This document shows, one piece after another, positions 42,208 through 59,112 of a stretch of DNA of 64,000 nt. Where the stretch lies: positions 613,929 to 677,928 of the forward strand of contig NZ_BBQZ01000001.1 of NCBI RefSeq assembly GCF_000974805.1, written 5' to 3'. A program made the position numbers and the translations under genes. The first letter of the stretch is position 1, and each line of letters opens with the position of its first letter. The notes below the pieces were generated by a model. The model had not been told where the DNA came from. It worked only from the letters and a program-made list of their open reading frames with translations, and did not search any database. The DNA is from Demequina salsinemoris. Its GTDB lineage: Bacteria > Actinomycetota > Actinomycetes > Actinomycetales > Demequinaceae.

Positions 42208-43794
42208 ATGTCTCACAGTGCCCGTATCCGCCGTGGCTCGGCCGCGACGGCAGGCCTGGTCGCGGGAGCGCTGCTGCTCGCGGCCTGCTCAGGATCAACC
42301 ACCGCCGACACCTCGGCCAGCTCGTCCGGGGAAGGCTCGGCCGAGGCCGCCGGCGCGGTCTCGACGCTGAAGGTCGGCCTTGACTTCGACAGTGCGACGT
42401 ACGGCTACGACCCTCACACGCTCGCCTCGGGTCTGCGGTTCTTCTACGAGGGCCTCTACGACTCGCTGTTCACCCTCGATGAGGACGGCAACATCGTCCC
42501 AGGCCTGGTGACCGACTACTCGTACTCCGAGGACGGCATGTCGATGACGCTCGACCTCGACTCCTCCGCCACGTTCACCGATGGCAGCACCCTGACTGCG
42601 GAGCTCGTCAAGGCGAACCTCGACGCCCGAGACGATGCAGAGCTCACCGCGCTGTCGCAGTTCGCCGAGGGCGGGTCCACGGAGATCACGGATGTCGTGG
42701 TCGTCGACGAGGACACCGTCACCCTGGAGTTCGCCGAGGCGCAGTCGGGCTTCGAGGGCAACCTCGTGATGCCGAGCGGCGCCATCATCGGCGCCGACGC
42801 CATCGCGGACCGTTCCCTGCTGGCCGACCAGGCCGACGGCTCGGGCCCGCTCACGATCGACGAGGCCGCGACGGTCAAGGGCACGTCCTACGTGATGGTG
42901 ACCAAGGAGGGGCGGGAGGGCGAGCTTCCCTTCGCCTCCTACGAGATGATCCCGATGCTCGACCCCCAGGCCCGCATCAACTCGCTCGCGTCGGGCGACC
43001 TCGACGTGGCCGGCATCGAGACGAGCGCCGCTGAGCAGGCAGCCTCGCTCGGAGTGGACCTCGTCCAGAACGGCGGCTCCGTGCAGGAGATGTTCGTGTT
43101 CGACAAGACGGGCGCCACCGTCGAGGCCTTCGGGGACCTGCGCGTGCGCCAGGCCCTCATGATGTCGCTCGACCGCCAGGCGATCGTGGACGCGCTCTCG
43201 CCTGGCTCGCACGCCACGGCCAACGCGCTCCCGATGGACTCGCCCGGCTACGACACGGCGATCGACGAGCAGTACGCGTACGACCCCGAGGCGGCGAAGG
43301 CGCTCCTCGAGGAGGCGGGCTACGGGGACGGCTTCGAGTTCGAGATGATCTCGAACGGCGACGTCCAGACGATCCTCGAGCTCATGCAGGCCTACTGGGC
43401 CGAGATCGGCGTCACCATGACGCTCAAGAACGCTTCCTCGACCGAGGAGATCTTCGCTGCGGTCCAGACCATGCCCCTCGGCTCGCCGACCATCACGACG
43501 TGGACCAACCCCGCGGGCTTCGTCTTCGGCGCGATGTTCGGCTTCATGAACCCGCACGGCGCGGAGAACCCCGAGCTCGAGGCCGCCGCCGGCGCGCTCG
43601 GTGCCGCCGAGACGGATGAGGACGCGGCCGCCGCTCTGCTCGCCCTCAACCACGCGATCACCGACAACGTGTGGCTCATGCCGCTCTACGAGGAGCTCGT
43701 CACCTGGGGCTACAGCTCGGACGCCGTCGCCGAGTTCGGATTCCCGGGCATCGAGTCCACGCCTCGCCTGCAGGACATCGAACCCGCAGTCTGA
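42208..43794 (+). CDS. Family-5 solute-binding lipoprotein 1 (Dpp/Opp type)
   Basis: A 528-residue extracellular binding protein of the peptide/nickel/oligosaccharide family. The lipobox LAAC gives Cys27, then a Ser/Gly tether. Family motifs include GLYDSLFTLDEDGNIVPGLV and FGDLRVRQALMMSLDRQAIV. AGGAGG (42196-42201) lies six bases before the ATG. Many proteins of this family in Actinobacteria and Thermotogae bind oligosaccharides rather than peptides; the divergent GH78 and downstream glycosidases suggest a rhamnose-containing glycoside here. The ligand is inferred. Confidence 0.88.
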   Translation: MSHSARIRRGSAATAGLVAGALLLAACSGSTTADTSASSSGEGSAEAAGAVSTLKVGLDFDSATYGYDPHTLASGLRFFYEGLYDSLFTLDEDGNIVPGLVTDYSYSEDGMSMTLDLDSSATFTDGSTLTAELVKANLDARDDAELTALSQFAEGGSTEITDVVVVDEDTVTLEFAEAQSGFEGNLVMPSGAIIGADAIADRSLLADQADGSGPLTIDEAATVKGTSYVMVTKEGREGELPFASYEMIPMLDPQARINSLASGDLDVAGIETSAAEQAASLGVDLVQNGGSVQEMFVFDKTGATVEAFGDLRVRQALMMSLDRQAIVDALSPGSHATANALPMDSPGYDTAIDEQYAYDPEAAKALLEEAGYGDGFEFEMISNGDVQTILELMQAYWAEIGVTMTLKNASSTEEIFAAVQTMPLGSPTITTWTNPAGFVFGAMFGFMNPHGAENPELEAAAGALGAAETDEDAAAALLALNHAITDNVWLMPLYEELVTWGYSSDAVAEFGFPGIESTPRLQDIEPAV

Positions 43795-43822
43795 CCATTC
43801 CTCCCTGTCCCCCAGCAACCAC

Positions 43823-43856
43823 GGCGCTGGGGTCGCTGCAAGGCGGCCCCAGCGCC
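43823..43856 (+). other. GC-rich intercistronic hairpin
   Basis: GGCGCTGGGG (43823-43832) pairs perfectly with CCCCAGCGCC (43847-43856) around a 14-base loop, between the first binding-protein and permease genes. It is placed like the hairpins at 28569 and 50238. Confidence 0.7.
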
Positions 43857-43873
43857 CGGATGGAGCACGTCCC

Positions 43874-44815
43874 ATGCTGACGTTCATCGTGAAACGGATC
43901 GGCTTCGCCGCAGTGACGCTTCTCGTCGCCTCAGGACTCGTCTTCCTGCTCATGCATCTGTCGCCCACCACGCCCGGCGTCGTGGCGCTCGGCACGGGCG
44001 GCACCCCCGAGACGATCCAGGAGTACAACGAGAGCATCGGCTGGTACGACCCGTTGTTCGTCCAGTATCTGCGGTGGCTCGCGGACCTCGTGCAGGGCGA
44101 CCTCGGAACGTCCCTGACGGACGGACGCGACATCGCGACCGACATCGGGAAGCGACTGCCGGTGACGGCCGCGGTCGCGGCCGGGGCCGTCCTCCTCAGC
44201 TCGATCGTCGGCATCGCGCTCGGCGTCACCGCCGCCGTCCGGCGCGGGATCGCCGACCGCATGGTCACCGCGATGTCAGGCATCTTCATCTCGATACCGC
44301 AGTTCTGGCTGGGCATCGTGCTCGTCTTCGTCTTCGCGGTCCAGCTCGGCCTGCTGCCCGCCTCCGGATTCACGCGCCTCGAGGATGACCCGGCCGCCTG
44401 GTTCAGGTCGCTCCTGCTGCCCGTGCTGACGCTGTCCGTCGGATCGGTCGGCTTCATCGCCCGCCAGACGCGCGCCTCGATGGTCGAGGCCCTGACCCAG
44501 GAGCACATCCGCACCCTGCGCGCGGTCGGCACCCCGACCTGGCGCATCCTCTACGTCCACGCGCTCCGCTACGCGAGCCTGCCGATCGTGGCGGGCATCT
44601 CCATCCAGTTCATCGGACTGTTCGGCGGGTCCGTCATCATCGAGCAGCTCTTCAACCTGCCCGGCGTCGGCCTCGCGATGCAGCAGGCGGTGGGCTACAC
44701 CGACGTGCCGTTCGTCCAGGCGCTCGTCGTCGTCGCGACTCTCGTGGTCGTGATCGTCAACCTGCTGCTGGAGATCTCCAACAAGCTCCTCGACCCGAAG
44801 CTGCGTGCCTCATGA
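43874..44815 (+). CDS. ABC transporter permease 1, DppB type
   Basis: A 313-residue permease with six helices. The first helix (FIVKRIGFAAVTLLVASGLVF) and the following SPTTPGVVALG region are DppB-like. The EAA-like loop is EHIRTLRAVGTPTWRILYVHAL, and the LFNLPGVGLAM segment near the end is characteristic. The start is ATG 43874; the frame opens upstream inside the binding-protein gene. The stop overlaps the next ATG (ATGA). Confidence 0.92.
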   Translation: MLTFIVKRIGFAAVTLLVASGLVFLLMHLSPTTPGVVALGTGGTPETIQEYNESIGWYDPLFVQYLRWLADLVQGDLGTSLTDGRDIATDIGKRLPVTAAVAAGAVLLSSIVGIALGVTAAVRRGIADRMVTAMSGIFISIPQFWLGIVLVFVFAVQLGLLPASGFTRLEDDPAAWFRSLLLPVLTLSVGSVGFIARQTRASMVEALTQEHIRTLRAVGTPTWRILYVHALRYASLPIVAGISIQFIGLFGGSVIIEQLFNLPGVGLAMQQAVGYTDVPFVQALVVVATLVVVIVNLLLEISNKLLDPKLRAS

Positions 44816-46794
44816 CCGCTCAGAAGACCTCCCGCCGGCCCGCCAAGCACGCGGCGCCTGGAGCGATCCGCACGATCGTCAGATCCCCGTGGGGCCTCGC
44901 GGCCGCCATCTGGATCCTCGGGCTCCTCATCGCCTCGCTCACGTCCTCCCTGTGGCTTCCCTATGACGTGCTCGAGCAGGACCTCAGCGCCATCCAGCAG
45001 GGGCCCTCCGTCGAGCACTGGCTCGGAACCGATCAGCTTGGTCGCGACATCCTCAGCCGCATCGTCCATTCCGCTGCCTCGACCATCGGTCTCGGCGCGA
45101 TCACAGCCGCGGTCGGGCTGTCCGTGGCGCTCCCCGCAGCGCTCCTCTCGGCCCGCAACGCTCGCGCCGAGACCATGGTCAACCGCGTCTCCGAGGTCAT
45201 GATGTCGATCCCCGGCATGACCGTGATCCTCGCCTTCATCGCCGTGGTCGGCACCAACATGCCGCTCGTGATGATGCTGCTCGGGCTCCTCATCTCGGCC
45301 GGCATCTACCGCATCATCCTCGGCCAGGCGAAGTCCATCCAGACGCAGCTGTTCATCGAGGCCGCCGAGGTCGACGGCCTGCGCAAGAGCTCGATCAGCT
45401 TTCGGCACGTGCTGCCCAACATGATGACCACGATCACGGTGCAGGCGATGCTCCTGCTCGCGATGGGAATCATGACCCAGGCGGGCCTGGCGTTCATCGG
45501 CTTCGGCCCGCAGCCGCCCGAGCCCACCTGGGGTGGCCTGATCCAGGACGCCTCGAAGTACCTCTACACGTTCCCCTGGATGATGGTGCCGACCGGCCTC
45601 GTGCTCGCGCTCACCGTGATCGCGTTCAACAGCCTTGGCGACCTCCTGTCGCAGGGACAGGCCTCGCCGCCTCCGCTCGTGCAGCTTCGCCAGCGGGTCT
45701 CGCGCGCTGCCAAGGCGCACCGTCGCGAGAGCCTGGCCCAGGCATCGTCCGGTGAGCGCGCGAGCGCCGCGAACGTCCTCGAGGTCCGCGACCTCGTCGT
45801 CGGTGTCGAGGACGGGCCGGACATCGTCACCGGTGCATCTCTGAGGGTCGAGCCGGGTCGTGTGATGGCGCTCGTGGGCGAGTCCGGCTGCGGAAAGTCG
45901 GTCACCTCCTTCGCGCTGCTGGGTCTGCTCGCGCCGGGACTCGAGGTGCGTGGCGGCTCCGCGACGTGGAACGGCATGAACATCGCGGCCTCGACCGACG
46001 CGGAGATGGCCACGATCCGTGGACGTGAGATCGCCTTCATCTCCCAGGAGCCGATGCGGGCCCTGGACCCCATGTTCACGATCAGCTCCCAGCTCACCCA
46101 GGTGATCCGGCGGCTGCGGGGCGTCGACAGGGCCGCCTCGAAGCGGATCGCGGCCGAGCTGCTCGAGCAGGTCGGAATCGTCGACGTGCCGCGCGTGCTG
46201 AAGTCCTACCCTCACCAGATCTCGGGAGGGATGGCCCAGCGCATCGCCATCGCGCTCGCGCTGGCCGGAGAGCCGCGCCTGATCGTCGCGGACGAGCCGA
46301 CCACAGCCCTCGACGTCACCGTCCAGGCCGAGATCCTCGGTCTGCTCAAGCACCTGGTCGACGAGACCGGGATGTCCATGGTCCTCGTGACCCACGACCT
46401 CGGCGTCGTCGCCGACATCGCCGACGACGTGTCGGTCATGTATGCGGGACAGATCGTCGAGGTCGGTTCCGCGGAGGCGGTGCTCGTCTCCCCGGAGCAC
46501 CCGTACACGATGGCGCTGCTCGCAGCGGACCCGCACCTGACGGTGGTGTCGGACGGCAGGGACCGCCTGGCATCGATCCCCGGCCAGGTGCCGACGCCCG
46601 AGGCATGGTCGACGGGCTGCCGCTTCGCGGAAAGGTGCCTCTTCGCCACCGACTCGTGCCGGAAGCCGGTCGAGCTGTCCGAGCGCGCCAAGGACGAAGG
46701 GCTGGTGAGGTGCGTCCACCGCGACGCCGTCGCCGGTCGCCAGAACGCGTGGCGTGAGCCGGCCGTGGTCGGCTCCGTCGTTGAGGAGGCATGA
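44812..46794 (+). CDS. Fused permease-ATPase 1 (DppC-DppD)
   Basis: A 660-residue fusion. Residues 1-290 are a DppC-type permease (WLGTDQLGRDILSRIV, EAAEVDGLRKSSISFRHVLP, GFGPQPPEPTWGGLIQDA). Residues 320-660 are a DppD-type ATPase with Walker A GESGCGKS (356-363), signature ISGGMAQR and Walker B LIVADEPTTALDVTV. The C-terminal oligopeptide-transporter extension has four cysteines (CRFAERCLFATDSC and a later C). Most homologues are separate genes. The linker is a short polar stretch (PPPLVQLRQRVSRAAKAHRR). Confidence 0.93.
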   Translation: MTAQKTSRRPAKHAAPGAIRTIVRSPWGLAAAIWILGLLIASLTSSLWLPYDVLEQDLSAIQQGPSVEHWLGTDQLGRDILSRIVHSAASTIGLGAITAAVGLSVALPAALLSARNARAETMVNRVSEVMMSIPGMTVILAFIAVVGTNMPLVMMLLGLLISAGIYRIILGQAKSIQTQLFIEAAEVDGLRKSSISFRHVLPNMMTTITVQAMLLLAMGIMTQAGLAFIGFGPQPPEPTWGGLIQDASKYLYTFPWMMVPTGLVLALTVIAFNSLGDLLSQGQASPPPLVQLRQRVSRAAKAHRRESLAQASSGERASAANVLEVRDLVVGVEDGPDIVTGASLRVEPGRVMALVGESGCGKSVTSFALLGLLAPGLEVRGGSATWNGMNIAASTDAEMATIRGREIAFISQEPMRALDPMFTISSQLTQVIRRLRGVDRAASKRIAAELLEQVGIVDVPRVLKSYPHQISGGMAQRIAIALALAGEPRLIVADEPTTALDVTVQAEILGLLKHLVDETGMSMVLVTHDLGVVADIADDVSVMYAGQIVEVGSAEAVLVSPEHPYTMALLAADPHLTVVSDGRDRLASIPGQVPTPEAWSTGCRFAERCLFATDSCRKPVELSERAKDEGLVRCVHRDAVAGRQNAWREPAVVGSVVEEA

Positions 46795-47795
46795 TGAGCG
46801 CCATTCCGCTGCAGGAGAACGCCGCACCCGCCCAGGCTGAGGCCGGGACCCCGATGCTCGAGGTGGAGAACCTGACCCTCCAGTACTCGCGCAAGGGTCC
46901 GGTCATCGTCGACGACGTGTCCTTCTCGGTCGCGCCCGGCGAGACCGTGGGCCTCGTGGGAGAGTCCGGCTCGGGCAAGACCACGATCGGCCGCTCCGTC
47001 CTGGGGCTGCTCGGCGCCAGGTCCGGTGCCATCCGCTTCCAGGGCGAGGACATCACGCACCTGTCGCCGCGTGCCCGGCGCAAGCTGCAGGGCGAGCTGC
47101 GTGCGGTGTTCCAGGACCCGTACTCCTCGCTCAACCCGCGTCGCACGGTCGGCGAGTCGCTCGCCGAGCCGCTCAAGGTCGCGAAGGTGCCCTCGGAGCA
47201 GATCGGTCCGAAGATCGCTGCGACGCTTGAGGCCGTGGGGCTCCCCGCGAACGCGGCGGGCCGATTCCCGCGGCAGTTCTCGGGAGGCCAGCGTCAGCGC
47301 ATCGCGATCGCGCGCGCCCTCATCACCGACCCGCAGCTCGTGGTCTGCGACGAGGCGGTGAGCGCGCTCGACCTGTCCACCCAGGCGCAGGTGCTGAACC
47401 TGCTCGCGGACCTGCGCGAGGAGCGCGGGCTGAGCTACCTGTTCATCGCGCACGACATCTCAGTGGTGGAGTTCCTGGCCCAGCGAGTCGTCGTGCTCTA
47501 CCGGGGACAGGTGATGGAGTCCGGGCCGTCGTCGGAGGTGGTGCGCAACCCGCGGCACCCGTTCACCAAGGTGTTGATCGCGGCCTCTCCCGTGCCGAAC
47601 CCGGCCACGCAGAAGGAGCGACGCGCGCAGTGGTCGAGCCTCAAGGCGGCGTCCGCGGGCGCCGCGCCGGCGGACGCGGGCGGCTGCCCGTTCGCCGCAC
47701 GGTGCCCGCTCGCGACCGACCTGTGCCGCAGCGTGCGGCCGAAGCCTCGTCGGCTAGGCGAGGCCGACGTCGCCTGTCACTTCGCGGAGGAGTGA
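46791..47795 (+). CDS. ABC transporter ATPase 1, DppF type
   Basis: A 334-residue ATPase that pairs with the fused ATPase. Walker A is GESGSGKTT, the signature FSGGQRQR, and Walker B LVVCDEAVSALDLSTQ. The C-terminal extension holds four cysteines (CPFAARCPLATDLC and CHF), as in Opp/Dpp ATPases. GAGGAGG lies just upstream; ATG 46791 overlaps the preceding stop by four bases, and ATG 46794 has better spacing to the ribosome binding site. It ends the first transporter operon, before the 27-bp repeats. Confidence 0.94.
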   Translation: MMSAIPLQENAAPAQAEAGTPMLEVENLTLQYSRKGPVIVDDVSFSVAPGETVGLVGESGSGKTTIGRSVLGLLGARSGAIRFQGEDITHLSPRARRKLQGELRAVFQDPYSSLNPRRTVGESLAEPLKVAKVPSEQIGPKIAATLEAVGLPANAAGRFPRQFSGGQRQRIAIARALITDPQLVVCDEAVSALDLSTQAQVLNLLADLREERGLSYLFIAHDISVVEFLAQRVVVLYRGQVMESGPSSEVVRNPRHPFTKVLIAASPVPNPATQKERRAQWSSLKAASAGAAPADAGGCPFAARCPLATDLCRSVRPKPRRLGEADVACHFAEE

Positions 47796-48666: not shown

Positions 48667-50226
48667 ATGCTCCGCACTGCCAAGTTCGGCGCCCTTGTCG
48701 GCGTCGCCGCACTCGCCCTCGCGGCCTGTTCGTCGGGAGGGACCGACGATTCGACCGCCTCATCCGACTCGTCATCGTCGGCCACCGCCGCCGAAGGTCG
48801 GGCCGAGCAGCTCACGATCGGCGCGGTCGTCGACGTCAGCACCTGGTCCGCGCAGGACGCAGCCTGGGGCAACACGGCGACCTACATGATGGCCGTCTAC
48901 GACACGCTCCTGCGGCAGAACGCCGACGGCACGATCGAGGCGGGGCTCGCGACCGACTGGTCGTACGACGACTCGATGACGGTCCTCACGCTCACCCTGC
49001 GGGACGACGTCACCTTCACGGACGGCTCGGCGCTCGACGCCGACCTCGTGGTCGAGAACCTCACCCGCTTCCAGAACGGTGCCTCGGAGAACAGCGGCAA
49101 CCTGTCCTCGATCGACTCCGTCACCGCGGTCGACGCCACGACGGTCGAGATCGCGCTGTCGGCACCGGACCCGGCGCTGCTGAGCTACCTGGCCCAGAAC
49201 TCGGGCCTGATCGAGGCCGAGTCCGCCTTCGACTCCGCGGACATCCAGACGGTCCCTGTGGGCTCCGGCCCGTACGTGCTCGACGCCGACTCGTCCACGA
49301 TCGGCTCGTCGTACACCTTCACGGCGAACGACGACTACTGGGACCCGGACAGCCAGCACTACGACACCATCGTGATCAACTACTACGCCGACGCGAACGC
49401 GCTGCTCAACGCGCTGCGTGACAGCCAGGTGGACATCGCGAACCTGAACTCGACCTCGCAGATCCCCGACGCCGAGTCCGCGGGCTACACGATCAACACC
49501 CAGACCCTGAACTGGAAGGGCCTCATCCTGGCCGACCGCTGGGGTGTCGTGGACGAGGCGCTCGCCGACGTCCGCGTGCGTCAGGCGATCAACTACGCGC
49601 TCGACCGCGAGGGGCTCCTCGCGGGCATCGAGTCCGGCTACGGCGAGGTGACGACCCAGATCTTCGGTACCGGCACCACCGCGTACGAGGAGGACCTCGA
49701 CAGCTACTACACGTACGACGTCGACAAGGCGAAGGAGCTGCTGACCGAGGCCGGCTACCCCGACGGCATCACCATCACGATGCCGCTGTCAAGCTTCGTG
49801 CCCGAGTCCGAGGCGCAGCTCATCGCGGGCAACCTGGCCGAGGCCGGGATCACGGTCAACTACGAGACCGCGGGCGAGTCCTTCATCTCCGACCTCCTCG
49901 GCGGCAAGTGGGCGGCCTTCGAGTTCGGCCTCAACCAGGAGTCCGAGTCCTGGGCCACCTACAAGCTCTCCGTCTCGGTCGACTCCGCGTGGAACATCTA
50001 CCACCAGAGCACCGACGAACTCGACGCGTTGGCCGACCGCATGCGCATGGGTGGAGAGGACGGCGACGCCGCGGCCCAGGAGATGAACGAGTACCTGGTC
50101 GAGAACGCCTGGTTCGCCCCGTTCTACCGCGTCGAGGGCGTGATCGTCACCAACGACGCCACCTCGGTCACCCTCAAGAACGGCCAGGCCGTGTCCAACC
50201 TCTGGGACATCGTCCCGACCGCCTGA
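48667..50226 (+). CDS. Family-5 solute-binding lipoprotein 2 (Dpp/Opp type)
   Basis: A 519-residue binding protein. The lipobox LAAC gives Cys21, then a Ser/Asp/Thr tether. Motifs are YDTLLRQNADGTIEAGLATD, SYTFTANDDYWDP and LADVRVRQAINYALDREGLL. The start is ATG 48667; the open frame extends upstream through the operator without support. It is only distantly similar to binding protein 1, which suggests a related but distinct ligand. It heads a seven-gene run that includes GH1, beta-PGM/GH3 and GH43, so an oligosaccharide or glycoside ligand is likely. Confidence 0.88.
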   Translation: MLRTAKFGALVGVAALALAACSSGGTDDSTASSDSSSSATAAEGRAEQLTIGAVVDVSTWSAQDAAWGNTATYMMAVYDTLLRQNADGTIEAGLATDWSYDDSMTVLTLTLRDDVTFTDGSALDADLVVENLTRFQNGASENSGNLSSIDSVTAVDATTVEIALSAPDPALLSYLAQNSGLIEAESAFDSADIQTVPVGSGPYVLDADSSTIGSSYTFTANDDYWDPDSQHYDTIVINYYADANALLNALRDSQVDIANLNSTSQIPDAESAGYTINTQTLNWKGLILADRWGVVDEALADVRVRQAINYALDREGLLAGIESGYGEVTTQIFGTGTTAYEEDLDSYYTYDVDKAKELLTEAGYPDGITITMPLSSFVPESEAQLIAGNLAEAGITVNYETAGESFISDLLGGKWAAFEFGLNQESESWATYKLSVSVDSAWNIYHQSTDELDALADRMRMGGEDGDAAAQEMNEYLVENAWFAPFYRVEGVIVTNDATSVTLKNGQAVSNLWDIVPTA

Positions 50227-50310: not shown

Positions 50311-51252
50311 GTGCTCCGATTCATCGGAAGGCGCATCGTCACGGGAGTCGGCCTCATCGCGACGCTGGCGACTCTGACGTTCTTCCTGCTGCAGTTCGGC
50401 AGCACGGACACCGCGCGCCGCATCGCCGGACAGTCGGCCACCGAGGACGCGGTCCAGGTGGTCGAGGAGAGGCTCGGCCTCGACCAGCCCGTCCTCGTGA
50501 GGTTCTGGGACTGGGTCGTCGCGGCGCTCCACGGAGACTTCGGCCTCTCATGGTTCTCGGGCCAGGACGTGCTCGAGGCCGTGACGACGCGCATGCAGGT
50601 GACCGTCACCCTCGCCGTGGGGTCGGTCTTCCTCACCGCCATCATCGCCATCGTGCTCGGCGCGTACGCCGCCACGAGGCGCGGCTGGCCCGACCGTGCC
50701 GTGCAGATCCTCTCCGTCATCGGCCAGGCCATCCCCGGCTTCCTGGTGGCGCTGGTCCTGGTGCTCGTCTTCGCGATCCAGCTGGACTGGTTCCCCGCGA
50801 CGGGCTACACCAAGCCGTCCGACTCCGTGCCCGAGTGGCTGCTGAGCATCACGCTGCCGGTCATCGCGCTCACGATCGGCTCGATCGGCGGCGTGGCGCA
50901 GCAGGTCCGCGGCTCGATGCTCGACGCATTCGAGCGCGACTACGTCCGCACCCTGCGCAGCCGTGGGCTCGCGCATCGCAGCGTCGTCTACAAGCACGTG
51001 CTCCGCAACGCCGCGGGCCCCGCGCTCAGCATCCTGGGGCTTCAGTTCGTGATCCTCCTCGGCGGTGCCGTCATCGTCGAGACGCTCTTCTCGATCCCTG
51101 GCCTCGGCCCGCTCGCCCTGTCGAGCACGTCCAATGGCGACATCCCTGTCGTCATGGGCATCGTCGTCATCACCGGCGTGATCGTCATCATCGTCAACAC
51201 CCTCGTCGACGTCGCGCAGGCGTGGGTCAACCCGAAGGTCCGACTCTCATGA
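50311..51252 (+). CDS. ABC transporter permease 2, DppB type
   Basis: A 313-residue permease, the same length as permease 1. The first helix is RRIVTGVGLIATLATLTFFL; the EAA-like loop is RDYVRTLRSRGLAHRSVVYKHVL; LFSIPGLGPLAL is near the end. The start is GTG 50311 with AAGGAG seven bases upstream. The stop overlaps the next ATG (ATGA). Together with the fused DppC domain it forms the channel. Confidence 0.92.
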   Translation: MLRFIGRRIVTGVGLIATLATLTFFLLQFGSTDTARRIAGQSATEDAVQVVEERLGLDQPVLVRFWDWVVAALHGDFGLSWFSGQDVLEAVTTRMQVTVTLAVGSVFLTAIIAIVLGAYAATRRGWPDRAVQILSVIGQAIPGFLVALVLVLVFAIQLDWFPATGYTKPSDSVPEWLLSITLPVIALTIGSIGGVAQQVRGSMLDAFERDYVRTLRSRGLAHRSVVYKHVLRNAAGPALSILGLQFVILLGGAVIVETLFSIPGLGPLALSSTSNGDIPVVMGIVVITGVIVIIVNTLVDVAQAWVNPKVRLS

Positions 51253-53045
51253 GCTCCGCATCCGCACCCTCCGCCGCGGACACCCGTGCGCCGCGCGCGG
51301 GCCTGCTCCGGCGACTGGTCACGCACCCGCTCGGCGGGATCTCGATCGTCTTCCTGACCCTGATCGCGATCATCGCGATCATCGGCCCCTTCATCGCGCC
51401 GTTCGACCCGACCGCGACCGACCTCAAGATGATCTTCGCGGCTCCCGGCGACGGCCACCTGCTCGGCGGCGACTCCGCGGGTCGTGACATCTTCTCGCGG
51501 CTCCTCGTCGCGACGGGACTGTCGCTCGCCGGTGGTCTGCTCGTCGCCGCGGTCGGCACCATCATCGGCGTCAGCGCCGGCCTCGTCGCCGGCTACTACG
51601 GCGGCTGGATCGACACGATGGGCTCGTGGTTCACGGCCCTGACCATGTCGATCCCGTCGATCATCGTCCTCATCGCCGCGCGTTCCGTGATGGGTCCGTC
51701 CATGTGGTGGACGATGGCGATCTTCGGCGTCTTCATCTCTCCCGTGTACTACCGCGTCGTCTACAACTCGGTCAGGTCGGTTCGGGGCGAGCTCTACGTC
51801 GACGCGGCGCGCACCTCGGGTCTGGGAGACGGCCGCATCATCGGTCGCCACGTCCTCATGGCGGTGCGCGCGCCGGTCATCCTGCTCACCGCGGGCACGA
51901 TCGCCGCCGGTATCGGGATGCAGGCCGGCTTCGACTTCCTCGGACTCGGTGATCCCGAGAACCCGACATGGGGCCAGATGCTCAACGAGGGCTTCTACAA
52001 CATCACCCGCGCCGGACAGCTCGTCCTGTGGCCCGCGCTCGCGCTCGGCCTCACGATGATCTTCCTCACGCTGCTCGGCACGGCGCTTCGCGACGAGCTC
52101 GAGGGCACGTCGGACCTCAAGAAGGTCAAGGGCCAGGCGCCCTGGGCCCTCGAGTCCCCGGCGCCGGAGATCATGCGTCACGAGGACGATGCGGCCGCCG
52201 AGGTGCTCCTCGAGGTCAAGGACCTCGCGGTCGCGTACCCCGCGGGGACCGAGTGGGCCACGGTCGTCAAGGGTGCGAGCCTCGAGGTCCGCAAGGGCGA
52301 GACCCACGGCCTCATCGGGGAGTCCGGCTCGGGCAAGACCCAGACCGCCTTCTCGGTGCTCGGCCTGCTGCCCCAGGGTGGCAGGGTGATGGCCGGTTCG
52401 ATCGTCTTCGAGGGTGAGGACATCACCGGCGCGAACGACGCGATCATGAACAGGTACCGGGGCAGCAGGATCGCCTACGTCCCGCAGGAGCCGATGTCCA
52501 ACCTCGACCCCGCGTTCACGGTCGGCTCGCAGCTCACGGAGCCGCTGCGCTCGGTGCTGGGGATGTCCAAGGCTGAGGCGCGCGAGCGGGCCATCTCGCT
52601 GCTCGAGAGGGTCGGCATCCCCGACCCTCAGCGGACCTTCGACTCGTACCCGCATCAGCTCTCGGGAGGCATGGCCCAGCGTGTGCTCATCGCTGGAGCC
52701 GTCGCCTCGCACCCCGCGCTGCTCATCGCGGACGAGCCGACGACCGCCCTCGACGTCACCGTCCAGGCCGAGGTGCTCGACCTGCTGCGGGACCTGCAGG
52801 CGGAGCTCGGCATGGCGGTGCTCATCGTCACCCACAACTTCGGCGTGGTCGCCGACATCTGCGATCGCGTCTCGGTGATGCGTCGGGGCGTGATCGTCGA
52901 GAACGGCCCCACGCAGTCCGTCTTCGACGATCCTCGCCACGAGTACACGCAGGCGCTGTTCTCCGCGATCCCGACGGGGGCGCCGCGCGTGCCTCTGCCC
53001 GGGGCCGCGAACACCGGCACCCTCGGAATGGAGAAGCTGTCATGA
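51249..53045 (+). CDS. Fused permease-ATPase 2 (DppC-DppD)
   Basis: A 598-residue fusion built like the one at 44812. Residues 1-290 are a DppC-type permease (LLGGDSAGRDIFSRLLVATG, VDAARTSGLGDGRIIGRHVL, FLGLGDPENPTWGQML). Residues 315-598 are an ATPase with Walker A GESGSGKT (357-364), signature LSGGMAQR and Walker B LLIADEPTTALDVTV. Unlike the first fusion it ends soon after the ATPase core and lacks the C-terminal four-cysteine extension. The stop overlaps the next ATG. Confidence 0.93.
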   Translation: MSSASAPSAADTRAPRAGLLRRLVTHPLGGISIVFLTLIAIIAIIGPFIAPFDPTATDLKMIFAAPGDGHLLGGDSAGRDIFSRLLVATGLSLAGGLLVAAVGTIIGVSAGLVAGYYGGWIDTMGSWFTALTMSIPSIIVLIAARSVMGPSMWWTMAIFGVFISPVYYRVVYNSVRSVRGELYVDAARTSGLGDGRIIGRHVLMAVRAPVILLTAGTIAAGIGMQAGFDFLGLGDPENPTWGQMLNEGFYNITRAGQLVLWPALALGLTMIFLTLLGTALRDELEGTSDLKKVKGQAPWALESPAPEIMRHEDDAAAEVLLEVKDLAVAYPAGTEWATVVKGASLEVRKGETHGLIGESGSGKTQTAFSVLGLLPQGGRVMAGSIVFEGEDITGANDAIMNRYRGSRIAYVPQEPMSNLDPAFTVGSQLTEPLRSVLGMSKAEARERAISLLERVGIPDPQRTFDSYPHQLSGGMAQRVLIAGAVASHPALLIADEPTTALDVTVQAEVLDLLRDLQAELGMAVLIVTHNFGVVADICDRVSVMRRGVIVENGPTQSVFDDPRHEYTQALFSAIPTGAPRVPLPGAANTGTLGMEKLS

Positions 53046-53958: not shown

Positions 53959-55194
53959 ATGACGAGCGCACGCCTGCCCGAGGACTTCCTGTGGGGAGTC
54001 GCGGTCTCCGGTCACCAGACCGATGGAGGCGACACCACGTCCGACACCTCGTTCCTCGAGAACGTCCAGCCGACGGTCTTCGCCGAGCCCTCGGGCACGG
54101 CGTGCGGCAGCTGGGAGCGCTGGGAGGAGGACCTGGACCTCACCGAGGCGATGGGTCTCAACGCCTACCGCTTCTCGATCGAATGGAGCCGCGTGGAGCC
54201 CGAGCAGGGCACGATCGACGAGTCCGCGCTCGACCACTACGAGGCGGTCGTCGACGGCTGCCTCGCCCGGGGCCTCGCTCCGGTCGTGACCTTCAGCCAC
54301 TTCACCTCGCCGCACTGGTTCGGGGCCCGCGGCTCGTGGCTCGCCGAGGAGGCCGCCGACGACTTCGCGCGCTTCTGCGGCGTCGTGATGGACCGCATCG
54401 GAGACCGCATCGCGGTCGCGGTGACCCTCAACGAGCCCAATCTCCAGCGCCAGCTCGCGGGGGGCTTCCTGCCTCCGCAGGCATGGGAGGGTCACAAGGC
54501 GACCCTCGAGGCCGCGTCGAAGGCCGCCGGGGTCGAGCGCTACCGCGCGGGCAACGTGCAGCGCCTCGACGAGCTCGACGCCTTCGAGGAGGGCTTCGAG
54601 AAGGCGCACCTCGCCGCGAAGGCCGCCATCAAGGCGCGCCGCGCCGATCTCCCCGTCGGATTGTCGCTCGCGGTCGCCGACGACGTCGCGCTTCCCGGCG
54701 GCGAGGCGGCTCGCGACCAGGTGCGCGAGGACTGCTACGGCCGCTGGCTGCGGCTCGTCAAGGACGACGACTTCGTCGGCGTCCAGAACTACGAGCAGCT
54801 CCTCTACGGTCCCGAGGGACGCGTGGACACGCACGCAGGCGAGCAGGAGATCGAGCCGCGCTCGCTCGGTGGCGCGGTCCGCTACTGCTACGAGGCCTCG
54901 GGCGTGCCGGTGCTCGTGAGCGAGCACGGCCTCAACACCCAGGACGACGAGGAGCGCTGTGCGTTCCTGCCCGCCGCGCTCGCGAGCCTCGACGAGGCCA
55001 TCGCGGACGGCGTGCCCGTCCTCGGATACTGCCACTGGTCCCTCTTGGACAACTACGAATGGATCTTCGCGTTCGGGCCCCGCTTCGGTCTGCATTCCGT
55101 CGACCGTGCGACCCTTGAGCGCACCCCCAAGGCCTCCGCGAGCGTGTTCGCTACCGAGGTCGCCAAGCGAGCCACCGTGGAGGTGCCGGCATGA
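53959..55194 (+). CDS. GH1 family glycosidase with altered nucleophile motif
   Basis: A 411-residue GH1 enzyme, shorter than the usual 440-480. The acid/base is Glu159 in TLNEPN. The nucleophile is Glu322, but in VSEHGLN rather than the normal (T/S)ENG. The N-terminal motif is FLWGVAVSGHQTDGG, and SLLDNYEWIFAFGPRFG closes the barrel. No signal peptide. AAGGAG lies eight bases before ATG 53959. It may be a beta-glucosidase or a divergent glycosidase for the substrate brought in by transporter 2. The stop overlaps the next start. Confidence 0.9.
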   Translation: MTSARLPEDFLWGVAVSGHQTDGGDTTSDTSFLENVQPTVFAEPSGTACGSWERWEEDLDLTEAMGLNAYRFSIEWSRVEPEQGTIDESALDHYEAVVDGCLARGLAPVVTFSHFTSPHWFGARGSWLAEEAADDFARFCGVVMDRIGDRIAVAVTLNEPNLQRQLAGGFLPPQAWEGHKATLEAASKAAGVERYRAGNVQRLDELDAFEEGFEKAHLAAKAAIKARRADLPVGLSLAVADDVALPGGEAARDQVREDCYGRWLRLVKDDDFVGVQNYEQLLYGPEGRVDTHAGEQEIEPRSLGGAVRYCYEASGVPVLVSEHGLNTQDDEERCAFLPAALASLDEAIADGVPVLGYCHWSLLDNYEWIFAFGPRFGLHSVDRATLERTPKASASVFATEVAKRATVEVPA

Positions 55195-57608
55195 ATCAGA
55201 CAGCCATCGCAGCGAAAGCCGCGCTCTTCGACCTCGACGGCGTGATCGTCGACACCGCCAAGCACCACTTCATCGCGTGGCGGGCGATGGCCGCCGGTCT
55301 GGGCTTCGAGCTCGCCGACGAGGACGAGGAGCTGCTCAAGGGCGTCGGCCGCATGGACGCGCTCCGCATCGTCTTGAGGGTAGGTGGGGTGGAGGTCTCC
55401 GAGGAGGAGGCCGTGCGCCTCGCGACCGAGAAGAACGCGCAGTACGTCGAGGCGATCTCGACGCTCGCGCCCGAGGACATGCTCCCCGGCGCGCTCGCGT
55501 TCCTGCAGGACCTCCAGCGCCGCGGCGTTCCCACGGCGCTCGGCTCCGCGAGCCGCAACGCGCCGCTGATCCTGGACCGCCTCGGCATCCGCGACCTGTT
55601 CGACGCGATCATCGACGGCTCCATCGTGACCCAGGCCAAGCCCGACCCTGCGGTGTTCCTCGCGGGAGCCGAGGCGCTCGGCGTCGACCCGGCGGACTGC
55701 GTCGTCTTCGAGGACGCGATCGCCGGCGTTCAGGCGGCTCATGGCGGCGGCATGACGGCGGTCGGCATCGGCGACCCTGCCGTGCTCGGCGAGGCTGACA
55801 CCGTCATCCCCGGACTTCACGCCGTAGGCTCGCTCGCCGAGCAGGGCATCATCTTCGTGGGGTCACCCGCAACCGGCTCCAAGGAGGAGACCATGTCCGA
55901 CACCGCTCCCGTGCGCCTCGATCAGGCGCCGTTCCACCTGGATGCCGACGCCGAGGCGTGGGTCGTCGCGACGCGCGACGCGATGTCGGTCGAGGACAAG
56001 GTCGGTCAGCTGTTCTTCCTCATGGCGAACGACCCCGCCGGCGTGGACGCCGATATCGCGGTGAGCCAGCCCGGCGGCTTCATGCGTCGTGGCGCGCCGA
56101 TCGACGAGGCCGTGAGCCTCAACCGCTACCTTCACGAGGCGAGCTCGGTGCCGCCGCTGATCGCGGGCAACCTGGAGAACGGCGCCGATGGCGCGAGCTT
56201 CATGGCCACGCAGGTCGGCACTCCGTTGCAGGCCGCCGCGACGGGCGACGACTCGTGCGCGTACCGCATGGGCGAGGTCGCCGCGGTCGAGGGACGCGCC
56301 CTGGGCGTGACGTGGGACTTCGCGCCGATCATCGACATCCAGGTCAACCCGCGCAACCCGATCGTCCTCAACCGCGCGTTCGGCTCGGACCCCGAGCGCG
56401 TGGCGCGCATGGGCGTCGAGTTCGTGAAGGGCCTGCAGGATCACGGAGTCGCCGCGTCCATCAAGCACTGGCCCGGGGACGGCGTCGACGACCGCGACCA
56501 GCACCTGGTCACGACCGTGAACACGCTGAGCGTCGAGGAGTGGGAGGAGACCTTCGGGGCCGCCTACCGCGCATCGATCGATGCGGGCGCGCTGTCGGTC
56601 ATGGCCGCGCACATCGCGCTGCCTGCCTACACCCGCGCGCTGCGCCCGGGCATCAAGGACGAGGACATCATGCCTGCGTCGCTCGCGCCGGAGCTGACCA
56701 CCGAGCTGCTGCGCGAGCACCTGGGCTTCAACGGTGTCGTCATCACCGACGCCTCGCTCATGGGCGGCATGCTCATGAAGATGCCCCGCGCCGAGCTCGT
56801 GCCCGCCGCGGTCGCGGCCGGCTGCGACATGTTCCTCTTCACCCCTGACTACGCGGTCGATCACGCGCACATGCTCGCGGGCGTGCGCGAGGGCGTAATC
56901 TCCGAGGCTCGCCTCGACCAGGCGGTTACCCGCGTCCTCGCCCTCAAGGCGGCGCTCGGCCTCCACGCGGGACAGTCTCCCGAGGAGATCGTCCCTGGCC
57001 TCGACGGCATCGACACCGCCAAGCACCGCGCCTGGTCTCGCGAGCAGGCCGACGCGGGCATCACCCTGGTCAAGGACAAGGAGGCCGGCCTCCTGCCGCT
57101 GGATGTGGAGCGTCACAAGCGCGTGCTCGTCTACTCGCTGCGGGGGCTGCTGTCCTTCACCGGTCCCGCCGAGCGCTTCACCGCGCAGCTGAACGAGCGT
57201 GGCTTCGCCGCGACGCTGTTCGAGGACGGACCTCCCGGATCGACGATGTTCAAGCGCGTGGGCGTCGACGGCGGCGTCAACGGCGCCGACCTGCTCGACA
57301 GCTACGACGCGGTGATCTACGTGGCCGACGTGCAGCCGCGCTCGAACGAGACTGTCGCGCGTATCCACTGGGCGACCTTCACTGCGGGCAACCTGCCGCG
57401 CCACCTCACCGAGCTCCCGACGCTGTTCGTGTCGCTCGGCAGCCCTTACCACCTGCAGGACGTGCCGTTCGCGCGCACCTATGTCAACGCGTACGCCGCC
57501 AACAACGAGACGGTCGATGCGGTCGTCGCCAAGCTCACGGGCGAGGACGACTTCCGTGGCGTCAGCCCCGTCGACCCGTTCATGGGATACGAGGACGCCC
57601 GCTGGTGA
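55191..57608 (+). CDS. Beta-phosphoglucomutase fused to GH3 (possible phosphorylase)
   Basis: One uninterrupted 805-residue frame. Residues 1-225 are a clear beta-PGM of the HAD family: FDLDGVIVDTAKHHFIAW with Asp14 and Asp16, LKGVGRMDAL, GSASRNAP, AKPDPAVF and VFEDAIAGVQA. Residues 235-805 are a two-domain GH3 protein with nucleophile Asp520 (VVITDASL) and an IKHWPGDG loop with Asp433-436 and His438. This Asp-His pattern resembles NagZ and the GH3 phosphorylase Nag3 rather than GH3 beta-glucosidases with a C-terminal Glu acid/base. A ribosome binding site and ATG at 55881-55895 could also give free GH3 (571 aa). Both products would be cytoplasmic. Confidence 0.88.
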   Translation: MNQTAIAAKAALFDLDGVIVDTAKHHFIAWRAMAAGLGFELADEDEELLKGVGRMDALRIVLRVGGVEVSEEEAVRLATEKNAQYVEAISTLAPEDMLPGALAFLQDLQRRGVPTALGSASRNAPLILDRLGIRDLFDAIIDGSIVTQAKPDPAVFLAGAEALGVDPADCVVFEDAIAGVQAAHGGGMTAVGIGDPAVLGEADTVIPGLHAVGSLAEQGIIFVGSPATGSKEETMSDTAPVRLDQAPFHLDADAEAWVVATRDAMSVEDKVGQLFFLMANDPAGVDADIAVSQPGGFMRRGAPIDEAVSLNRYLHEASSVPPLIAGNLENGADGASFMATQVGTPLQAAATGDDSCAYRMGEVAAVEGRALGVTWDFAPIIDIQVNPRNPIVLNRAFGSDPERVARMGVEFVKGLQDHGVAASIKHWPGDGVDDRDQHLVTTVNTLSVEEWEETFGAAYRASIDAGALSVMAAHIALPAYTRALRPGIKDEDIMPASLAPELTTELLREHLGFNGVVITDASLMGGMLMKMPRAELVPAAVAAGCDMFLFTPDYAVDHAHMLAGVREGVISEARLDQAVTRVLALKAALGLHAGQSPEEIVPGLDGIDTAKHRAWSREQADAGITLVKDKEAGLLPLDVERHKRVLVYSLRGLLSFTGPAERFTAQLNERGFAATLFEDGPPGSTMFKRVGVDGGVNGADLLDSYDAVIYVADVQPRSNETVARIHWATFTAGNLPRHLTELPTLFVSLGSPYHLQDVPFARTYVNAYAANNETVDAVVAKLTGEDDFRGVSPVDPFMGYEDARW
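55881..55895 (+). promoter_or_regulatory. Internal ribosome binding site and start for free GH3
   Basis: AAGGAGGA (55881-55888) stands four bases before ATG 55893, in frame within the fused gene. This is among the best ribosome binding sites in the window, so a separate GH3 protein is probably made. No stop codon separates it from the beta-PGM part. Confidence 0.8.
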
Positions 57609-57636: not shown

Positions 57637-59112
57637 GTGAGCGCGACCCCGATACTGCCCGGATTCCACCCCGACCCGTCGATCTGCCGGGTCGGGGAGG
57701 AGTATCTGATCGCGACCTCGACGTTCGAGTACGTTCCCGGCGTCCCGATCCACCGGTCCACGGACCTCGTGACGTGGGAGCTCGTCGGGCACGTCCTGGC
57801 GGATCCCGAGGTCGTCAACGCCGCGCCCGGAGCGGCCGGCGCGAGCCAGGGCATCTTCGCCCCGACGCTGCGCCACCGCGACGGACTGCTGTGGATGACG
57901 ACCACGAGCATCCGCGACGTGGGCGCCGGCCAGCTGATCACGCACGCCGAAAGGCCCGAGGGGCCGTGGTCGGAGCCCGTGCGCGTGCCTGGCACGCTCG
58001 GCATCGATCCCGACCTCGCGTGGGACGACGACGGCGCGTGCCTGCTCACGTGGCGCGGCTTCGCGCCCCCAGGCATCCACCAGGTGCCGATCGACCCGGC
58101 GACGGGGGAGCGGCTGGGCGAGGAGGTCGTCGTCTGGCAGGGAAGCGGGCTCGCCGACACCGAGGGGCCGCACCTGATCCGGCGCGGCGACTGGTGGTAC
58201 CTGATCGTCGCCGAGGGCGGCACCCACCTGGGACACGGGGTCTCGGTCGCGCGTTCGCGCTCGCCGCGGGGTCCGTTCGAGTCCCACCCGTCCAACCCGT
58301 TCTTCACCCACAGGTCCACGGACGATGCGGTACAGGCGGTCGGGCATGCCGACCTGGTCGAGCTCGCGGACGGGTCCTGGGCGATGGTGCACCTCGGCAT
58401 CCGCCAGGCGGGCTCGCACCCGGGCTTCCACGTGCTCGGACGCGAGACCTTCCTCGCGGGCGTCGACTGGGTCGACGACTGGCCGGTCGTGGTCCAGGAC
58501 CGCTTCGAGGTTGCCGAGGCCGATCGGTCATGGTCCGACGACTTCGCAGCGACGATGCTCCACCCTCGCTGGGTCGCGCCGTCCGTGACCCCGTCGTCGT
58601 TCGCGACGCCGGGAGACGGCCTCGCGCTCGGGCATGGCCGAGGACCGAGCGAGGCCGAGCAGAGCAGCGTCCTGTGCGCCCGCATCGGCGACCGCTCCTG
58701 GGACGCGAGCGCGAGCATCGTCCAGGGAGACGCCTGCCTGTCCGTCCGCCTGGACGCGGGCCGCTGGTACGGAGTCGAGCGCGTCGGCGATGTCGCGCGG
58801 GCGCGCGCCGTGAGCGCGCCGTTCGACCAGGTGATGGGCGAGGCGGCGCTGGGTCCGGACGATGCGCTCGCGATCAGGGTGCGCGCGGCCGAGCCCAGGC
58901 TGGGCGAGAGCAGCGGACCCGACCTCGTGTCGCTCGGGCTCGCGCGTGACGGCGAGTTCGTGGAGATCGCGACGCTCGATGGGCGGTACCTCTCGACGGA
59001 GGTCGCCGGTGGGTTCACGGGCCGGATGCTCGGCCTCGAGGCGCTCGGCGCTCCCGCGCGCATCGCTCGCGTCGCCTACCGCGCGTGCGACGCGGGGAGC
59101 GCTCAGTCGTGA
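57637..59112 (+). CDS. GH43 beta-xylosidase/arabinofuranosidase-like enzyme
   Basis: A 491-residue GH43 enzyme without signal peptide. The five-bladed propeller begins with ILPGFHPDPSICRVGEEYLI (catalytic base Asp); the pKa-modulating Asp is in LGIDPDLAWDDDG and the acid Glu in LADTEGPHLIRRG. A C-terminal beta-sandwich (about 310-490) is of the kind found in beta-xylosidases. The GTG start lies 28 bases after the fusion gene. It is the last gene of the transporter 2 operon. Removal of xylose or arabinose from the imported glycoside is the likely job; specificity is not certain. Confidence 0.9.
   Translation: MSATPILPGFHPDPSICRVGEEYLIATSTFEYVPGVPIHRSTDLVTWELVGHVLADPEVVNAAPGAAGASQGIFAPTLRHRDGLLWMTTTSIRDVGAGQLITHAERPEGPWSEPVRVPGTLGIDPDLAWDDDGACLLTWRGFAPPGIHQVPIDPATGERLGEEVVVWQGSGLADTEGPHLIRRGDWWYLIVAEGGTHLGHGVSVARSRSPRGPFESHPSNPFFTHRSTDDAVQAVGHADLVELADGSWAMVHLGIRQAGSHPGFHVLGRETFLAGVDWVDDWPVVVQDRFEVAEADRSWSDDFAATMLHPRWVAPSVTPSSFATPGDGLALGHGRGPSEAEQSSVLCARIGDRSWDASASIVQGDACLSVRLDAGRWYGVERVGDVARARAVSAPFDQVMGEAALGPDDALAIRVRAAEPRLGESSGPDLVSLGLARDGEFVEIATLDGRYLSTEVAGGFTGRMLGLEALGAPARIARVAYRACDAGSAQS

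Follow-up and report, generated by a model that had tools for sequence, protein, structure and literature searches.

Why would a beta-phosphoglucomutase (beta-PGM) be joined in a single polypeptide to an enzyme of glycoside hydrolase family GH3? The question is raised by a gene in a stretch of 64,000 nucleotides from Demequina salsinemoris (assembly GCF_000974805.1, contig NZ_BBQZ01000001.1, positions 613,929-677,928), which we call the window and whose positions serve as coordinates throughout. Judging from sequence comparisons, we consider it quite probable that the product is one cytoplasmic two-step enzyme, in which a GH3 half of the type of the phosphorylase BglP would convert a beta-glucoside and phosphate to beta-glucose-1-phosphate (beta-Glc1P) and the mutase half would convert the latter to glucose-6-phosphate (Glc6P). 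The parts are of known kinds; joined in a fusion they make a variant that appears to be new, and the proposed mechanism is well supported. A literature search with limited coverage of the subscription literature found no report of a beta-PGM-GH3 fusion or of a linkage between BglP-type GH3s and beta-PGM; matches on beta-PGM, fusion and GH3 list separate genes only, and the passage on "beta-glucoside phosphorylase" in PMC7178133 concerns inverting enzymes.

The fused gene and its parts are the following.

55191-57608, forward strand: fused gene of a beta-PGM and a BglP-type GH3, 805 amino acids, in frame in 10 genomes
55215-55853, forward strand: beta-PGM domain, about residues 9-221, with catalytic D14, D16, S119, K150, E174 and D175 by alignment
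55854-55943, forward strand: linker of variable length, with low model confidence at residues 226-236
55881-55895, forward strand: internal Shine-Dalgarno-like element AAGGAGGAG at 55881-55889 with an in-frame ATG at 55893, a possible separate start for a free GH3
55944-57605, forward strand: GH3 domains, about residues 252-805, a full-length match to 5VQD
56463-56504, forward strand: loop KHWPGDGVDDRDQH, residues 425-438, with the Asp-His acid/base dyad D436/H438, identical in 10 of 10 fused proteins
56748-56750, forward strand: GH3 catalytic nucleophile D520 (TDA), by alignment

The frame, its conservation, the family membership of both halves and the gene neighbourhood were computed directly. 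A single open reading frame (ORF) runs from ATG to TGA with no internal stop, which confirms the claim of a sequence-only reading of this DNA that one frame joins a beta-PGM to a two-domain GH3; the ATG overlaps the stop codon of a GH1 gene (ATGA, 55191-55194). Pfam assigns residues 9-186 of the protein to the HAD hydrolases and residues 267-584 to the GH3 N-terminal domain. A structure model of the whole protein, built from unpaired rows (65 sequences), has a mean predicted local distance difference test score (pLDDT) of 83.7 and a predicted template-modelling score (pTM) of 0.67, and its stretches of low confidence are, besides that in the linker, residues 279-340, 374-382 and 685-694.

Among all PDB sequences, the best match of the GH3 half is the 5VQD/5VQE chain named "Beta-glucoside phosphorylase BglX" (432.9 bits, E 1.5e-128, chain residues 9-566, 41% identity), and the next after it, a GH3 beta-N-acetylglucosaminidase, scores 141.9 bits, a gap of about 290 bits. 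The structure model gives the same order, with 5VQE at the top (Z 43.5 over 509 residues) and the next GH3 at Z 37.7. According to PMC8950772, 5VQD/5VQE is BglP, and no GH3 phosphorylase other than BglP and Nag3, both of them retaining, had yet been characterised; BglP is tabulated there with both beta-N-acetylglucosamine-1-phosphate and beta-Glc1P. The likeness to BglP covers the full length and includes the same loop and the same nucleophile region, whereas the solved chain (573 amino acids) has no mutase domain. In a 14-row alignment that includes BglP the segments KH, PGDG, D and RDQH of the loop are unchanged throughout, giving the pattern KHxPGDGxDxRDQH; in 80 more distant loci (see below) PGDG is constant, the Arg is variable and two loci have DHH.

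The sequence-only reading had likened this half to NagZ and to Nag3. It had named the loop correctly, and the barrel fold and the Asp-His dyad are indeed common to the NagZ/Nag3 beta-N-acetylglucosaminidases and the present protein, but the loop is of the BglP type and the closest relative is BglP rather than Nag3. The NagZ-type sequences compared, which do not include that of Nag3, carry KHFPGHG...DSH in place of PGDG...RDQH, and the PDB chains among them score about 140 bits. The NCBIfam beta-N-acetylhexosaminidase model PRK05337 gives 109 bits, below its cut-off of 207. Loop and scores together rule out kinship with NagZ. By these comparisons the GH3 half falls within the BglP type, and the use of phosphate as acceptor with beta-Glc1P as product, which we infer from this relationship, is backed by the gene linkage described below.

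A beta-PGM works with a HAD nucleophile and an acid/base Asp, a cap Arg, an S-x-S motif, a Lys and a Glu-Asp pair. The motifs picked out in the sequence-only reading are all present in the mutase half (FDLDG with D14 and D16, SASRN at 119-123, KPDP at 150-153 and FED at 173-175), and residues D14, D16, R54, S119, S121, K150, E174 and D175 are invariant in an alignment of the 10 fused proteins. R54 aligns with R49 of the Lactococcus lactis enzyme, and R54, S119, N123 and K150 are all kept. The mutase half passes the NCBIfam beta-PGM equivalog model TIGR01990 (214.5 bits, cut-off 189.4), it matches the L. lactis beta-PGM with E 3.7e-48, and residues 7-221 of the structure model match that enzyme with Z of about 29. 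By family this half is a beta-PGM, and conversion of beta-Glc1P to Glc6P is its predicted activity. The likeness to the L. lactis enzyme (1LVH) thus lies in fold, catalytic motifs and TIGR01990 membership, and the difference in that the mutase is here joined to a GH3, with no GH65 nearby.

The gene neighbourhood of BglP-type GH3s in other genera points to the same partnership. We examined 80 far loci, the best of 579 confirmed stretches in named genomes, mostly from Bacillota and also from Actinomycetota, Chloroflexota, Vibrio and Treponema; the set may lack records that closely resemble the window. The flanks of up to 6 kb were searched with a profile for beta-PGM built on three sequences, a match being taken at E <= 1e-8. 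A beta-PGM-like ORF was found in the flanks of 56 of the 80 loci (54 of these below 1e-30), on the same strand in all 56, at most 250 nucleotides away in 37 and upstream in seven, and TIGR01990 recognised every one of the 53 neighbour ORFs long enough for scanning (E <= 0.001). Not one of the 80 loci has beta-PGM and GH3 in one ORF. The control consisted of 40 other GH3 genes from 14 of the same genomes with 6 kb flanks (one ending at a contig end), two of which were removed as having a BglP-type GH3 nearby, both of them with a beta-PGM; the remaining 38 had no beta-PGM near them. Among BglP-type loci with full flanks, beta-PGM was found in 32 of 47 at E < 1e-30 (34 at 1e-8) against 0 of 38 (p 3e-12 by a Fisher test, which treats loci that are phylogenetically non-independent). 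A narrower test with 1.5 kb flanks found beta-PGM at two of seven BglP-type loci and at none of 23 other GH3 loci.

Beta-Glc1P for a beta-PGM is usually supplied by a GH65 phosphorylase, which acts on alpha-glucosides with inversion. A search for GH65 at E 1e-6 found nothing in the window and nothing at the 80 far loci, and a GH65 neighbour is thereby ruled out as the source of the linkage between GH3 and beta-PGM. The sequence-only reading was right that the window has no GH65, but the genome does have one elsewhere (C17:147-150 kb), overlapped by a beta-PGM-like HAD gene 40% identical to the fused mutase over residues 8-193. That pair resembles the fused gene in placing a phosphorylase next to a mutase; the fused gene differs in being of the retaining, beta-glucoside type, in forming one polypeptide and in having no GH65 beside the mutase. 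The same genome also carries a beta-PGM-like gene that stands alone (C20, about 567-575 kb; L147:9785-17700) and shares 77-78% identity with the fused one; its neighbours are an ATP-binding cassette (ABC) importer of the SBP_bac_1 type, a GH78 and, judged by eye, a GH43-like gene, with no phosphorylase seen among them.

Within the genus, the in-frame fusion without stops occurs in 10 genomes, that of the window included (G000, G004, G001, G023, G031, G006, G020, G034, G036 and G063), and a frame common to 10 genomes rules out a sequencing error as the cause of the fusion. The other nine fused proteins are 59-93% identical to this one overall and 60-94% over the GH3 half. Two further genomes (G025 and G060) have the same two genes unfused, in different frames with an ATGA overlap, so that a search of related genomes for the fusion found it at 10 of the 12 orthologous loci of the genus. 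The ratio of nonsynonymous to synonymous substitution rates in six genome pairs is 0.06-0.41 in both halves and 0.14-0.68 in the linker; both halves look to be under purifying selection, the linker less so. In a phylogenetic tree the 12 GH3s form a single clade (support 100/100) with the two unfused members on separate branches, and because these sit in different branches the state of the junction has changed more than once; the tree allows one fusion followed by two later splits as well as several fusions.

The internal element AGGAGGAGACCATG is in frame in six of the 10 fused genes and missing from four, so that the internal start proposed from the sequence is there to be seen but is kept in only part of the genus. 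The related proposal that the genes were once separate fits the start kept in those six genes and the two orthologues with overlapping genes, but the tree is compatible with either state being the older. A GH3 of the BglP type is found in 15 of 47 genomes of the family (E <= 1e-60). In 396 genomes of the order, with at most two candidates scored per genome, no beta-PGM-GH3 fusion was seen beyond the genus, nor was one seen in 398 genomes of the phylum of genome G463, where a GH3 match at 1e-80 occurs in only two, G463 included. In a phylum-wide sample of 396 genomes, with three candidates scored per genome, one has a GH3 at 1e-80 among the matches shown, and it is the genome of the window.

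The mechanism we propose would begin with an Opp-type ABC importer that brings the beta-glucoside into the cytoplasm, where GH1, GH43 and a GH78 rhamnosidase would trim it. The GH3 half would then cleave it in a double displacement that has phosphate as its acceptor, with Asp520 as nucleophile and Asp436-His438 as acid/base, to give beta-Glc1P and the aglycone. The fused beta-PGM would convert beta-Glc1P to Glc6P via beta-glucose-1,6-bisphosphate, so glucose would enter glycolysis without the ATP spent by a kinase. The internal ribosome site possibly adds a free GH3, and the intermediate might be channelled between the halves. The coupling of GH3 phosphorolysis to the joined mutase, as the sequence-only reading had put it, finds support in the similarity to BglP, in the neighbour counts of 56 of 80 against 0 of 38, and in a fusion conserved under purifying selection.

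Several observations weigh against this coupling. Of the far loci, 24 of 80 show no beta-PGM in their flanks, and 33 of 80 have a shortened flank. In the order outside the genus, 14 loci all carry the KHxPGDG...RDQH loop, and a beta-PGM is nearby, by tblastn, in only one of them (two of the 14 have stretches ending at contig ends); in five of the 14 the GH3 is fused to a gluconokinase. Within the genus, three GH3s of lower similarity (42-43%) have the same loop and no beta-PGM. At a second locus of G020 (L136:10135-12467), a GH3 of the same type is followed by a separate beta-PGM-like gene that has lost its catalytic motifs (165.6 bits against the cut-off of 189.4, motif FGVDEV, FED gone) and is perhaps regulatory or dead.

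The scarcity of beta-PGM in the order outside the genus would suit an ordinary hydrolase, either a beta-glucosidase or a beta-N-acetylglucosaminidase, fused by read-through in one sugar operon with no direct coupling, the more so as two of the 12 orthologues are split by frame and the junction evidently shifts easily. Moreover, LpqI and RmNag3, which bear the dyad, are hydrolases on which phosphate has little or no effect (PMC6572805 and PMC6987092), so that the Asp-His dyad alone is a weak predictor of phosphorolysis. Both of these are NagZ-type enzymes, however, and against the GH3 half NagZ-type chains reach about 140 bits where BglP reaches 433. A hydrolase would release free glucose, which beta-PGM cannot use, yet a beta-PGM-like gene accompanies this GH3 type and none of the control GH3s. 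We regard a plain hydrolase as unlikely.

The type is also found in a second, independent fusion. In five genomes of another family (loci L224, L226, L227, L229 and L239:8421-10670) an N-terminal gluconokinase of the GntK/IdnK type is in frame with a GH3 that is 41-42% identical to ours; TIGR01313 is over its cut-off in all four of the fusions scanned, and Pfam finds UxaC, a mannitol-dehydrogenase-type oxidoreductase and an enolase-type enzyme in one of the clusters. On account of these relatives and of the loci without beta-PGM, the range of this GH3 type probably extends beyond a single sugar. That the present GH3 half is itself a phosphorylase for a sugar other than glucose, such as N-acetylglucosamine or glucuronate, with the mutase half handling another beta-sugar-1-phosphate, has in its favour these gluconokinase clusters and the two products tabulated for BglP (PMC8950772), but seems very improbable given a mutase half that passes the beta-PGM equivalog model with R54, S119, N123 and K150 in place and the failure against PRK05337.

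If the two-step reading from beta-glucoside to Glc6P holds, it would bear on a disputed matter, namely whether, in the living cell, GH3 enzymes that use a His as acid/base work as phosphorylases or as hydrolases: for one subgroup of GH3 that can be defined, a conserved fusion and a wide operon link to an enzyme that consumes beta-Glc1P would be evidence from physiology. It also suggests a sequence rule to try, the PGDG...DQH loop with a beta-PGM neighbour as opposed to the PGHG...DSH loop of NagZ, and it points to an energy-saving use of plant glucosides and offers a one-protein route from beta-glucoside to Glc6P for assay or synthesis. A broader picture can be put forward only tentatively, and the whole of it is somewhat doubtful: BglP-type GH3s would be true phosphorylases in cells and form with beta-PGM a widespread, unrecognised beta-glucoside route, condensed here into one protein plus a free GH3 from the internal start; plant rhamno-glucosides would be opened by GH78 in this genus; and the GH3 type would have been fused twice to product-using enzymes, beta-PGM for the glycone and gluconokinase for a sugar-acid product.

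The genes around the fusion bear on its likely substrate.

38997-41768, reverse strand: GH78 alpha-L-rhamnosidase, divergent to the solute-binding protein gene of a second Opp-type importer (42208-47792)
48667-50226, forward strand: SBP_bac_5 solute-binding protein of an Opp-type ABC importer
50311-51252, forward strand: ABC permease 1
51249-53045, forward strand: ABC permease 2 joined to an ATPase, 598 amino acids
53042-53902, forward strand: ABC ATPase 2
53959-55194, forward strand: GH1 glycosidase, its stop overlapping the start of the fused gene
57637-59112, forward strand: GH43 glycosidase

In all 11 relatives the fused or overlapping pair has the solute-binding protein gene upstream of it, and GH1 and GH43 are kept at the locus in five of the 11. 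A GH78 gene is within the fetched 20 kb of eight of the 11 relatives, in all eight divergent to the solute-binding protein gene of the fusion operon; with five GH78 matches in its 3.2 Mb, the genome offers about a 3% chance of one per 20-kb stretch, the eight loci being related to one another. GH78 also occurs at 14 of the 80 far loci and at one of the 38 controls (p 0.035). No signal peptide was seen by eye in the fused protein or at the GH3 start. GH78, the importers and the absence of a visible signal peptide favour an intracellular use of plant rhamno-glucosides, which would first lose their rhamnose and then undergo phosphorolysis.

A permease-ATPase fusion is present in both Opp-type importers (44812-46791, 660 amino acids, and 51249-53045), the latter also in relatives. 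In three relatives a cytochrome P450 gene stands beside the fused or overlapping pair (L134:8696-9898 by Pfam, L135:7215-8378 and L140:12867-14042 by tblastn), possibly in keeping with an aglycone of phenolic or terpenoid nature.

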